Positions 555-63,537 of a stretch of DNA of 64,000 bases are shown one piece after another. The stretch is from positions 1 through 64,000 of the forward strand of contig CAMTOQ010000013.1 of assembly GCA_947074205.1 (NCBI GenBank), read 5' to 3'. How positions within the stretch are numbered: the stretch's first letter is position 1; every line of letters starts with the position of its first letter. A model generated the notes under the pieces. The model did not search any database. It was not told the origin of the DNA and was given only the letters and a program-made list of their open reading frames with translations. This stretch comes from an uncultured Bacteroides sp. (GTDB taxonomy: Bacteria; Bacteroidota; Bacteroidia; Bacteroidales; Bacteroidaceae). A program made the position numbers and the translations under genes.

Positions 555-642
555 TTGGTGACCACGCCTACTCACCGTGCTGGCAAGGGCTTGCCTGCTT
601 GGTAGCAAGGGCTACTCACCGCGGTGACCACAGCTAGCCACC
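555..642. repeat. 22-bp modular palindromic repeat array A (4 units)
   Basis: Four head-to-tail units of exactly 22 bp lie between the convergent genes rluF and the histidine kinase (555-576, 577-598, 599-620, 621-642). Each unit reads 2-nt linker, left arm like GGTGAC, 8-nt core, right arm like CTCACC or GCCACC. The cores are CACGCCTA, AAGGGCTT, AAGGGCTA and CACAGCTA. The arms are inverted repeats of each other, so each unit could form a small hairpin or bind a dimer. The same architecture recurs at three other intergenic sites in this window. Confidence 0.85.
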
Positions 643-27121: not shown

Positions 27122-27209
27122 TTGGTGGCAAGGGCTACTCAGCTTGGTGGCAAGGGCTTGCCACCACGGTAGGCATGGGAGGTCACCACGGTGACAAGCC
27201 CTTGCTATG
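27122..27209. repeat. 22-bp modular palindromic repeat array C (4 units)
   Basis: Four units of exactly 22 bp (27122-27143, 27144-27165, 27166-27187, 27188-27209) follow the EamA gene. The second unit is an almost perfect palindrome, GGTGGC-AAGGGCTT-GCCACC. The fourth has the core AAGCCCTT, the reverse complement of AAGGGCTT, so units occur in both orientations. The others have AAGGGCTA and CATGGGAG. Confidence 0.85.
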
Positions 27210-27215
27210 TTTTCG

Positions 27216-28124
27216 CTATTTTTTAACTGCAATATCGGCCCGCGATTTACTTTGCGTCACGATGTATACCCCTATGAAAACCAGAGCGATAGCTAGACCT
27301 TTGGGCCAGTCGAATACACCTACCCCGATGGCCACAGCTGCAATGGAGGCCACTATAGGTTGCATGTAGTTGTACATGCTCACTACGGTTGGGCGCATCA
27401 GCCTTTGTGCAGTCATTATGCAGATGTAAGCCAAGAAACTACCGCAGAGCACCACATAAAGCACTTCGCCTATTGCGGTAAAGGGGACATTGCTCCACTG
27501 CAAAGTCACAATATCGCCCATCGAGAAGGGTAGGTATACTATAGAGGCATAGAGAAACATCCACTTGTTGAGTGTCACCGGCGAATAGCGCTGAGTGAGA
27601 CTTTTGAACACAGTGAGATAGATTGAGAAACTGAATTGTGCAACGAGCACTAGCAAGTCGCCAAGGATGTGGCCGGATGCTCCCGAACTGCCCCCAGTGC
27701 TATTCAGAATCAGAATCAATGCTCCACTGGCTCCTACTATGATACCGATAATCTTTTTGCCCGATATCGGTTCTTTAAGATAGAATGCAGCTACTATCAT
27801 GGTGATGATAGGCAGGGTAGTAGTGATGATCGATGCATTGATGGGTGAAGTCAAAGAAAGCCCGAAGATAAAAGTTCCTTGATTGAAAATCAGTGCAAAA
27901 AACGAAGCTACGAAGATGCGGATACGATCTTTTCGCTCAATCTGCTCATGTTTGGTGAAAATGGAAAGTACCCAAAATGCCACACAAGCACCCACCATAC
28001 GAAACGAAGTGAGCATAATGGGGGTGAAAAACACTAGTGCCGATTTTCCGATGGGAGACATCAATCCCCACATCATATTGGCAGAAAGGGCGCAAAGATG
28101 CCCACGTATATTCTTATCGGCCAT
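27216..28124 (-). CDS. EamA/DMT superfamily transporter
   Basis: An inner-membrane protein of 302 aa with ten predicted helices in two five-helix EamA repeats (about 10-140 and 155-295). Family features are the N-terminal ALSANMMWGLMSPIGK, the first-repeat end with TTTLPIITMIVAAFYLKEPISGKKIIGIIVGASGALIL split over two helices, and the second-repeat NYMQPIVASIAA. Members export amino acids, nucleosides or other metabolites; the substrate is unknown. It is transcribed alone, with repeat array C immediately downstream. Confidence 0.9.
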   Translation of the reverse strand: MADKNIRGHLCALSANMMWGLMSPIGKSALVFFTPIMLTSFRMVGACVAFWVLSIFTKHEQIERKDRIRIFVASFFALIFNQGTFIFGLSLTSPINASIITTTLPIITMIVAAFYLKEPISGKKIIGIIVGASGALILILNSTGGSSGASGHILGDLLVLVAQFSFSIYLTVFKSLTQRYSPVTLNKWMFLYASIVYLPFSMGDIVTLQWSNVPFTAIGEVLYVVLCGSFLAYICIMTAQRLMRPTVVSMYNYMQPIVASIAAVAIGVGVFDWPKGLAIALVFIGVYIVTQSKSRADIAVKK

Positions 28125-42267: not shown

Positions 42268-42347
42268 ATGATTCTAGTTGAGATTTGCTTGTTTGCTCCG
42301 TTTTCTTCACATAGGTGCATCTATTAGCAGATAGGGCGTGTTGGTAT

Positions 42348-42433
42348 AGTACACAGGGCTATGTACTGTAGTGGCTAAGGCTGCGTACCACAGTACATAG
42401 CCCTATGTACTAGCCTGAGTAGCTGTAGTCAGC
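42348..42433. repeat. 22-bp modular palindromic repeat array B (variant arms)
   Basis: Four 20-bp units with 2-nt linkers keep the 22-bp period (42348-42367, 42370-42389, 42392-42411, 42414-42433). The arms are AGTACA / TGTACT in units 1 and 3 instead of GGTGRC / GYCACC. The cores are CAGGGCTA, TAAGGCTG, TAGCCCTA and TAGCTGTA; the third is the reverse of the first type. Units 1 and 3 can pair over 15 bp. The rest of the 388-bp gap (42234-42621) holds the two divergent promoters and a small palindrome CCTCACCGTGAGG at about 42455. Confidence 0.8.
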
Positions 42434-55193: not shown

Positions 55194-55310
55194 CTAATTT
55201 ATATGTAATACCTTGCTCAGTTGCACTAAAAAACTCTTTTGAGTTCTGTTGTTTTAGTGCTACTCAACAGCTTATTTACTGATAAATATACGCTTTTTTG
55301 GGGTTTAATT

Positions 55311-55340
55311 TTTGTTTTGTTCATCTATTTTTTACTTTTG
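55311..55340 (+). promoter_or_regulatory. Promoter of the small lipoprotein gene
   Basis: TTTG (55311-55314), 18-bp spacer, TACTTTTG (55333-55340), then ATG at 55364. This sets the start and excludes the longer ORF from 55298. Confidence 0.6.
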
Positions 55341-55363
55341 TGACAATCACTAATTTAAATGAT

Positions 55364-55984
55364 ATGAAAAAAATCTTTTTCCTAGCACTAGCTGCCGGAC
55401 TTTTGATGTCTAGCTGTGGTGGCAAGACTACAAAAAAAGAATCTAGTAACGATGAAACTAAGCCTTGCTCAACTAAGTTGGAGCAACTTATTGGTACTGT
55501 AGGACCAGGTACGGCTATGCATTCACTTCAGTTATGCCAAATGGGCTTAAAGACAGACACCGTGTGGATTGCTATTGGCGATTCTACTGATGTGAAAAAC
55601 GCCAATTTGGTAATTGGAAATCTTGTGGAAGTACTGTGTAAGCCATGTGCTGATGGCGAACTCGTAGCTTTATCTATTGAAGGAAATCAAACTTACGCCG
55701 AAGCTATTGGCGACTGGACAACTCCAGATCCAGGTAACTCTAAACAACAGATGGGTGTTCAGCTTGATATAGAAGGTGTAGCATCATCTATTAATATGCA
55801 CACTTTGGTTTACAAATCATGGCAACTTACTCAAAATCCGGGTGAAGTAATCTTGATTGGCGAAAGCATTGGCAGTGGTCAAACATTTGAGTTTGCCGAT
55901 ACAGCAAGAATCTACAAGAAAGACGGTCAGTTGATGATGGGCTTTAAAGGTAACGACCTATCTTATACAAAACAGGCTAATTAA
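55364..55984 (+). CDS. Small lipoprotein, possibly lipocalin-like
   Basis: 206 aa with a clear lipoprotein signal (MKKIFFLALAAGLLMSSC then GGKTTKKESS). The mature part begins with a short Lys/Glu/Ser linker. The C-terminal part, with YKSWQLTQNPGEVILIGESIGSG and then ADTARIYKKDGQLMM, resembles Bacteroides lipoproteins annotated as lipocalin-like. Four Cys residues occur in the mature protein (two as CKPC), which might form a disulphide or bind metal. The function is unknown. It is monocistronic, with its own promoter and terminator. Confidence 0.75.
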   Translation: MKKIFFLALAAGLLMSSCGGKTTKKESSNDETKPCSTKLEQLIGTVGPGTAMHSLQLCQMGLKTDTVWIAIGDSTDVKNANLVIGNLVEVLCKPCADGELVALSIEGNQTYAEAIGDWTTPDPGNSKQQMGVQLDIEGVASSINMHTLVYKSWQLTQNPGEVILIGESIGSGQTFEFADTARIYKKDGQLMMGFKGNDLSYTKQAN

Positions 55985-56096: not shown

Positions 56097-56206
56097 TTAG
56101 TGACCACGCCTTGCTAGCTCGGTGAGTACAGCTATCCACCGTGGTAGGTAGCTGTGCTCACCAAGCTGGCAAGGGCTACTCACCAAACTGACTAGCTATA
56201 GGGCAT
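56097..56206. repeat. 22-bp modular palindromic repeat array D (4 units plus a decayed fifth)
   Basis: Units at 56097-56118, 56119-56140, 56141-56162 and 56163-56184, then a degraded one to 56206, all in 22-bp register. The cores are CACGCCTT, TACAGCTA, TAGCTGTG, AAGGGCTA and TAGCTATA. TAGCTGTG is the reverse complement of CACAGCTA in array A. The array lies between the terminator of the lipoprotein gene and the fur-like gene. The remaining bases to 56341 are AT-rich and show no clear promoter. Confidence 0.85.
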
Positions 56207-56341
56207 AAAACTACTACATATTGCTTCTGTTTTGAGGCCATCTGCAATAGGTGAAAACTAGCTAAAAGTATTCAAAATTCTAAGTGCTAGATACCCTTTC
56301 TCGCTGTTTTTCTCTTTTTTTGCAGCTCAAAAAATAAGTGT

Positions 56342-56749
56342 ATGGAGATTAGAGAGAAGATAAAGAGTACAGGGTTGAAAGCCACACCGCAACGCCGCGC
56401 CATTTATGGTGTGATGAAAGAGCTTTGCCACTGTTCTATTGATGAGGTGATAACACGTATACGTGGTGAACACCCCGATGTAACTATCTCTACCGTGTAT
56501 CGTGTGATGGACTCGTTTTGCGAGGCAGGGCTGCTGGCTAAGTTTACTAATGGCACAGGTAAAACAATTTATGATGTCACGCCCCAAGCACATCACCATA
56601 TACAAACCAGTAATGACGAATACCTTGACATTTCCGACCGTCAACTTTCCGACTTGGTGCGTAGAAGAGTACTGCCTCAGATACCCGATGGCGAAGTGAT
56701 AGACAAGATTTTGATTCAAGTCACAACAAAGCAGAAGGCTGAAGCTTAA
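56342..56749 (+). CDS. Fur family transcriptional regulator (no Cys zinc motif)
   Basis: 135 aa. The winged helix has the Fur signature: LKATPQRRAIYGVM, then ISTVYRVMDSFCEAGLL as recognition helix. The dimerisation part keeps a His cluster (AHHHIQ) where Fur has HHDH, but the structural CxxC pairs after it are absent and the C-terminus is short. It could therefore sense metal or peroxide through a His/Asp/Glu site, as in PerR-like proteins, or be tuned differently. The convergent neighbour encodes an Fe-S CDGSH protein, which fits an iron or redox setting but is not proof. Confidence 0.88.
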   Translation: MEIREKIKSTGLKATPQRRAIYGVMKELCHCSIDEVITRIRGEHPDVTISTVYRVMDSFCEAGLLAKFTNGTGKTIYDVTPQAHHHIQTSNDEYLDISDRQLSDLVRRRVLPQIPDGEVIDKILIQVTTKQKAEA

Positions 56750-56777
56750 ACTCTTCCTACTTGCTATAAATACCTGC

Positions 56778-56820
56778 AAAATGCCCAACCACTGAAAAGA
56801 GTGGTTGGGCATTTTGGCTT
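56778..56820. terminator. Bidirectional terminator between the fur-like and CDGSH genes
   Basis: A perfect 16-bp stem from AAAATGCCCAACCACT to AGTGGTTGGGCATTTT with a 6-nt loop; A/T-rich ends serve both strands. Confidence 0.9.
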
Positions 56821-63198: not shown

Positions 63199-63279
63199 AA
63201 AAAAGGGAAGTCTCACGACTTCCACATTTTTTCTAACCTTAAATCTAAATCTCTATGAAAAAAACGTAGTGCAAATATA
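63199..63279 (-). ncRNA. Candidate small RNA gene, copy 1 of tandem pair
   Basis: Read on the minus strand: -7 element TATATTTG (63279-63272), a transcript of about 65-70 nt, then a hairpin GGAAGTC-GTGA-GACTTCC directly followed by CTTTTTT, a textbook intrinsic terminator. The unit is repeated 180 bp away with 79 of 80 bases identical. It has no meaningful ORF. Function unknown; it could also be only a doubled terminator for the helicase gene. Confidence 0.45.
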
Positions 63280-63511
63280 GGGGATTTTATATTACGTAGT
63301 TGTTAATAGAATGAATAAAAGAAAGAATAAATACTAAAATGTGGAGGTGGAGAGGGGTAATAGGTGACATATAGATAAAAAAAAGGGAAGTCTCACGACT
63401 TCCACAATTTTTCTAACCTTAAATCTAAATCTCTATGAAAAAAACGTAGTGCAAATATAGAGCTTTCTTTCATATCTCCATGTTAACGAATCACATAAAA
63501 GAAAGAATAAA
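63201..63511. repeat. 180-bp tandem duplication downstream of tatC
   Basis: 63201-63280 and 63381-63460 differ at one base out of 80. A second block, 63301-63331 versus 63481-63511 (TGTTAA ... ATAAAAGAAAGAATAAA), keeps the same 180-bp offset, while the bases between have diverged. This spans the whole 397-bp gap between tatC and the helicase gene. Confidence 0.92.
63379..63459 (-). ncRNA. Candidate small RNA gene, copy 2 of tandem pair
   Basis: Same structure as copy 1: TATATTTG at 63459-63452, about 70 nt, the same 7-bp terminator hairpin and T run. The T-to-A difference is in the A/T-rich stretch just before the hairpin. The conserved TGTTAA about 21 bp upstream of each -7 element would fall at the -33 region. 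Confidence 0.45.
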
Positions 63512-63537
63512 AATTAATGACTGTAAAGGTTAGTAAA

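Follow-up and report, generated by a model that had tools for sequence, protein, structure and literature searches.

Intergenic palindromic arrays in Bacteroides keep one geometry while their spelling varies by species

In many Bacteroides species, short intergenic arrays of palindromes have the same geometry while their spelling varies by species. In the window (the whole 64-kb stretch of DNA from an uncultured Bacteroides sp. that was analysed), a sequence-only reading had claimed four intergenic arrays with a 22-bp period, and this claim is borne out, the third array being a divergent member built of other modules. Their appearance is that of docking arrays or of a dispersed repeat type not yet described, and the evidence favours recognition as duplex DNA, not RNA. 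Genomes and loci are referred to by our G and L numbers, the source genome of the window being G000.

Results

The four arrays of the window start at 557, 27124, about 42326 and 56099, and neither they nor their units are assigned a strand. Array 1 (557-642; profile match G000:C13:555-644, E 2e-20) comprises four 20-bp imperfect palindromes joined by 2-bp linkers, positions 555-644 being spelled TT GGTGACCACGCCTACTCACC GT GCTGGCAAGGGCTTGCCTGC TT GGTAGCAAGGGCTACTCACC GC GGTGACCACAGCTAGCCACC AA, and the cores that had been listed for it earlier match this sequence. Its linkers are GT (577-578), TT (599-600) and GC (621-622), with TTT (554-556) before the array and AAAA (643-646) after it. Each unit joins a half-module to a second one in reverse complement: GGTGACCACG and GGTGAGTAGG in unit 1 (557-576), GCTGGCAAGG and GCAGGCAAGC in unit 2 (579-598), GGTAGCAAGG and GGTGAGTAGC in unit 3 (601-620), and GGTGACCACA and GGTGGCTAGC in unit 4 (623-642). 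The array sits between convergent genes: the plus-strand ORF on one side has its stop at 538, 18 bp before the array, and the minus-strand ORF on the other (674-2632) has its stop 31 bp away. Arrays 2 and 4 belong to the same family as array 1. Array 2 (27124-27209; units at 27124-27143, 27146-27165, 27168-27187 and 27190-27209) lies 6 bp past the 3' end of a minus-strand ORF (27216-28124), and array 4 (56099-56184; units at 56099-56118, 56121-56140, 56143-56162 and 56165-56184) lies between convergent ORFs, 114 bp from 55298-55984 on the plus strand and 142 bp from 56327-56812 on the minus strand, with a terminator-like hairpin between the plus-strand stop and the array. Array 3 (42326-42433) keeps the 22-bp register and is built of other modules, AGTACATAG...CTATGTACT; three to five units are recognisable, the three clear ones within 42348-42411 (AGTACACAGGGCTATGTACT, AGTGGCTAAGGCTGCGTACC and AGTACATAGCCCTATGTACT) having weaker units on either side. 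Elsewhere in the window, a gene-free stretch at 63199-63517 holds two direct repeats of 139 bp, 84% identical and 180 bp apart, each opening with a terminator-like hairpin, GGGAAGTCTCACGACTTCC; CTAACCTTAAATCTAAATCTCTATGAAAAAAACGTAGTGCAAATATA is common to both, and they are not tRNA.

Consensus shuffles, PWM scores and a period scan indicate that the register of the arrays is not due to chance. The consensus GGTGRSWAGSSCTWSYCACC, allowing at most two mismatches, has five matches in the window against 0.00 expected from 100 dinucleotide shuffles, and the four-unit PWM score is at least 72 in 40 of 42 arrays, the maximum in random DNA being about -50. A de novo scan of 348 kb of source-genome sequence, mostly picked around arrays, gave 41 matches at period 22 and 0-2 at every other period from 16 to 30. 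The family is genuine and genome-wide, and the refuting condition set earlier, that a genome-wide scan finds these four sites only, does not hold. A blastn search with array 1 returned 47 matches in the source genome, which resolve to 42 loci, and a profile built from 37 arrays (90 alignment columns, zero gaps) found at least about 75 distinct array places among the matches listed, a lower bound with 150 of 627 candidates scored in a draft genome of 3.32 Mb (97 contigs, 89% complete); array counts throughout rest on searches of draft genomes. Exactly four units (86 bp) are present in 40 of the 42 arrays and three in the other two, and there are no indels among the profile matches listed, each match being as long as its model span.

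The unit had been described as a 6-nt arm, an 8-nt core, an inverted 6-nt arm and a 2-nt linker. The 20-bp units, 2-bp linkers and 22-bp period of this plan stand, but arm, core and arm are better seen as two paired half-modules, since a single set (GGTGAGTAG, GGTGGCAAG, GGTGACCAC and minor ones) supplies left and right halves alike. An array thus contains eight half-modules of 10 bp (11 bp with their share of the linker), GSTGRSWAGS, in alternating orientation. Positions 5-7 of the half-module change together, as whole modules, of which AGT, GCA and ACC are the main ones. That the arrays mix modules from a small set is equally confirmed, both halves of a unit drawing on one small set of half-modules in source-genome arrays. 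The unit GGTGAGTAGCCCTTGCCACC is common, as is its reverse complement. Equal halves inside one unit are avoided in the source genome (20 observed against 37.5 expected), and the same holds for inverted copies in adjacent units. The ends of an array are mutually inverted, with a T-run before and an A-run after it. In the 30 bp on each side of source-genome arrays, a weak inverted flank consensus reaches to about -28; its T-rich stretches, near -2, -11 and -24, follow one another at intervals of about one helical turn (roughly 11 bp). The suggestion that all units face the same side of the DNA is only roughly right, as the genus also has related arrays of period 21 and 23. A non-palindromic centre is strongly evident in the source genome (z -6), but was dropped as a general rule in view of the GGCC centres of G150 and the GCGC centres of G004.

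Among the 160 genomes of the genus scan, blastn detects the dialect of the source genome in only six others, most clearly in G149, G150 and G151. The profile search finds related arrays in these three and in G004, with 52-150 two-strand matches each, and the centres of the dialects differ coherently, being GGGC or GCCC in the source genome, GGCC in G150 and GCGC in G004. The same plan occurs in unrelated sequence in G001 (GTGCCA N6 TGGCAC N4) and in two families of G046 and G085, GTTTCC...GGAAAC and GGTGAGTATA-TATGGCTACC, with about 40 arrays each. A de novo scan of 400 kb of G150 yielded 24 arrays with period 22, while periods 19, 21 and 23 had one each; the arrays fall into several sequence-unrelated families with the same 4 x 22 bp plan (one with 23), as exemplified by L163:11532, L166:1690, L168:7438, L169:2612, L173:17273, L174:19355 and L178:18178. 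Similar arrays are present at lower density in G033 and G052, where 21-bp, 23-bp and simple-repeat cases may not belong. Thin sampling elsewhere in the order, at about 100 kb for each of three further families, revealed no such array, and an equally thin sample of a fourth family (68 kb) one direct 22-bp repeat. A pattern scan of GTDB genomes returned mostly chance matches in Fibrobacter coding DNA. In G001, the GTGCCA arrays at L111, L115, L116 and L117 are longer and carry extra GTTTC half-units; three of the four have a common leading flank, AGCGGACGAGGAGTAGAAGGTATGCTTTGC, so what was copied is a larger element.

The arrays are located between transcription units, commonly past the terminator of the upstream gene. 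Flanking genes are co-directional at 24 of the 42 loci, convergent at 11 and divergent at 7, so a preference for convergent genes was rejected, and the arrays show no preferred orientation. At a gene end that faces an array, the stop codon is usually followed by a terminator hairpin with T-run, and the array begins some 30-40 bp beyond it. Many arrays lie 95-115 bp from the stop, with a second group at 0-36 bp, and some arrays between convergent genes have both stops 17-33 bp away (window 557, L026, L031). The flanking genes are ordinary and unrelated to one another, and no theme emerged from 74 of them with 127 Pfam families: transposases are not among the commonest, and enrichment of a gene family beside arrays was rejected.

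Between more distant species, corresponding intergenic gaps can each hold an array in the species' own dialect (L026/L327, L027/L339, L019/L147, L071/L073), the share of such matching gaps being biased upward because the source-genome loci were chosen around arrays. The G150 array L143 has no counterpart in the gap of about 24 bp between the corresponding genes of the source genome (flank identity about 75%), which points to gain or loss at this locus, and decayed arrays occur (L147, L143). The close species G046 and G085 are 91-98% identical in the compared contig and have most arrays in common, with zero to few point changes. One locus that corresponds between the two species carries an exact 26-bp inversion, AAAAGTTTCCCGCTTGGGAAAATAAA at L269:1502-1589 (G046) versus TTTATTTTCCCAAGCGGGAAACTTTT at L273:1502-1589 (G085), which covers one unit with its linkers while the neighbouring units are identical. 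GTTTCC arrays in both genomes follow one four-slot template, u1-AAAA-u2-TAAA-u3-TTTT-u4; in G046 their arms are fixed, their linkers mostly fixed and their cores variable, some cores being exact inversions of the commonest one. Substitutions per site between the two genomes (7 pairs) are 0.032 in arrays versus 0.048 in adjacent intergenic DNA, a difference that is not significant, and we rejected the proposal that arrays are more conserved than their flanks. Neither a target-site duplication nor a clean empty-site junction was found between G046 and G085: two candidate empty sites in G085 were discarded, as one had the array and the other diverged flanks.

The idea that a REP-type Y1 transposase tracks with the family is not supported. 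Y1_Tnp (PF01797, RAYT) is not detectable in ten array-bearing genomes (G000, G001, G004, G009, G033, G046, G085, G149, G150 and G151), five of which reach 90% completeness with contamination of no more than 5% (G000 is 89% complete), while the E. coli control was positive; one match each was obtained in G012, G045 and G049. Position weights and alignment likewise give no evidence of a GTAG or CGTC tag at one palindrome end, the ends being symmetric (GSTG and CASC, flanked by TT and AA) and lacking a one-sided unpaired tetranucleotide. The GTGCCA dialect, the only one queried, was found in 0 of 2.9 million viral contigs and 0 of 50,697 phages. Plasmid records gave two weak matches, both from Bacteroides finegoldii (NZ_OY725912.1:86537-86619 and NZ_OY725951.1:20317-20393); these records are listed as non-mobilizable plasmids and may be chromosomal pieces.

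Discussion

What known class of repeat do these arrays resemble most? CRISPR arrays also consist of regularly spaced palindromic units. Unlike them, the Bacteroides arrays are contiguous, with 2-bp linkers only (in the dialect of the source genome), no unique spacers and dozens of four-unit arrays per genome. In the best reading, the arrays are a kind of extragenic palindrome, REP/BIME-like cassettes of duplex DNA with fixed geometry. Like REP/BIME sequences, they consist of short, imperfect palindromes whose orientation alternates, and they are scattered between genes at tens to hundreds per genome and in species-specific families (PMC2817692). The GTAG and CGTC tags that mark two REP superfamilies (PMC3733652) and a RAYT gene are, in contrast, both lacking, and the arrays are near-fixed at four units and period 22, with sequence-unrelated families sharing a common geometry. 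The sequence-only reading had spoken of a REP-like mobile mosaic, and the dispersed, intergenic, species-specific and alternating character of the units agrees with this; since the ten genomes lack a Y1 transposase and the palindromes a one-sided tag, however, we do not file the arrays as RAYT-driven REPs. REPINs, too, are dispersed intergenic miniature elements of about 100 bp that are palindromic overall, but in them a variable spacer separates two conserved ends, compensatory changes are seen and a cognate RAYT exists (PMC3116915), whereas the Bacteroides arrays have four similar units, no excess of compensation and no RAYT. Within the Bacteroidales, the BrickBuilt MITE of Porphyromonas gingivalis likewise forms intergenic tandem repeats, with a 23-bp period (PMC4596501). 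It is made of direct repeats, AGAYCATARTATCCTCTCRTRTG, in variable number (18 full repeats in BrickBuilt_5), without a described dyad plan; its leader and tail carry terminal inverted repeats like those of IS elements, and it occupies 19 loci of one species (PMC4596501). Judged from the papers, both BrickBuilt and the B. thetaiotaomicron promoter motif PM2 were set aside. The earlier reader knew of no described family with this plan, and in the open-access full texts searched we likewise found no description of this array class.

Why should four dyads at a spacing of 22 bp be kept when their sequence is not? We put a probability of roughly 0.4 on the arrays being genus-wide chromosomal cassettes, subject to birth-and-death turnover, whose duplex DNA is read by a putative dimeric or oligomeric protein; sites for a dimeric DNA-binding protein, an earlier guess, are the mechanism we favour. 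A cassette comprises eight half-sites of about 11 bp whose orientation alternates; they form four 22-bp dyads over about 88 bp and lie in the spacer between transcription units. A sequence-specific protein would occupy the half-sites side by side on double-stranded DNA and would require both the 22-bp spacing and the four dyads; such a strict reader of spacing is favoured because the geometry is fixed across unrelated sequences, free of indels. Cassettes would be gained and lost whole and altered by point mutation, module replacement and inversion, and each lineage would thereby keep its own recognition dialect. Turnover is favoured because of the near-neutral rate between close species together with the common template. 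Any benefit to the cell would likely lie in marking or insulating transcription-unit borders, or in chromosome organisation as proposed for BIMEs, which bind gyrase, IHF and Pol I (PMC2817692). We are more doubtful that the geometry is conserved with the sequence left free, lineages rewriting their arrays in concert through fast-evolving proteins or through one shape reader that marks transcription-unit borders.

Several observations count against protein binding: no candidate protein was found, several unrelated families per genome would need several proteins or one shape reader, the arrays of G046 and G085 are not clearly more conserved than adjacent intergenic DNA, and selfish spread explains the single GTTTCC template equally well. 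It is a serious, if still tentative, alternative that the arrays are selfish or neutral miniature repeats without host function, a cassette of about 90-110 bp being copied in trans to new spacers by an enzyme that would need the 4 x 22 arrangement. Such spread is consistent with dispersed copies on one four-slot template, dialects confined to clades, an array in G150 where the source genome has a gap of only about 24 bp, near-neutral change, decay at L147 and L143, and insertion-tolerant sites past terminators. It is harder to reconcile with the missing Y1/REP transposase, the lack of an enriched neighbouring gene family, the failure to find a target-site duplication or an empty site when very close genomes are compared, and the several corresponding gaps that carry arrays in different dialects. 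A protein-binding cassette that has a role for the host and a selfish one whose mover needs the geometry are close in likelihood, and not mutually exclusive.

The remaining explanations are less appealing. The hairpin chain in RNA that had been considered earlier, or its counterpart in single-stranded DNA, would have a folded strand, as four hairpins or one long one, recognised. Single strands do fold better than dinucleotide shuffles in six of seven arrays (z -3.7 to -11; array 1 only -1.3), yet arrays whose units or half-units were shuffled between loci within slots fold equally well or slightly better (z +1.0 to +1.6), so the advantage stems from the alternating arms. Arm mismatches in the sense strand of arrays between co-directional genes are equally G.T and A.C (61 versus 55), identical halves and inverted neighbouring copies are avoided in the source genome, the window has no Rfam match at the gathering threshold, and no global covariation was found, pairs of halves such as 1/8 and 2/7 included (in the GTTTCC family, slots 1 and 3 give P 0.06). 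The 26-bp inversion between inverted arms would fit hairpin-mediated template switching, and the changes between L281 and L318 (G046 and G085; CACTGG to CACCGG in unit 1, CCAGTG to CCGGTG in unit 3) kept two GTTTCC units complementary; long-range unit pairing nonetheless has only suggestive single cases (L107/L106, L281/L318) and is not above chance overall. As there is no G.U bias, no folding advantage and no Rfam match, we place recognition at duplex DNA and regard a folded strand as improbable. Still less credible are bidirectional transcription terminators or stabilisers of mRNA 3' ends: although convergent genes flank 11 of the 42 arrays, in some cases with both stops 17-33 bp away, the TTT before and AAA after an array are the reverse of an intrinsic terminator, many arrays lie past a separate terminator hairpin, and 7 of 42 are between divergent genes. 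Imperfect dyads at two-turn spacing also resemble multi-operator sites, but a transcription factor controlling an ordinary regulon through four tandem operators seems the least probable of all, with no theme among the 74 neighbouring genes and arrays at gene ends as often as at gene starts.

Bacteroides is a dominant gut genus that includes a model species, yet we found this class of repeats described in none of the open-access full texts searched. If the arrays bind a protein, each genome would offer tens of ready, evenly built sites to a factor that organises the chromosome or acts as an insulator, and dispersed sites that change coherently between species would be a rare bacterial case of concerted evolution, open to dissection in cultured strains. 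Should they be selfish, REP-like elements would be spreading without the known REP transposase, and a new mobilising enzyme would be there to find. Either way, the arrays are natural typing landmarks, and they can mislead assemblers and the annotation of CRISPR arrays or terminators.
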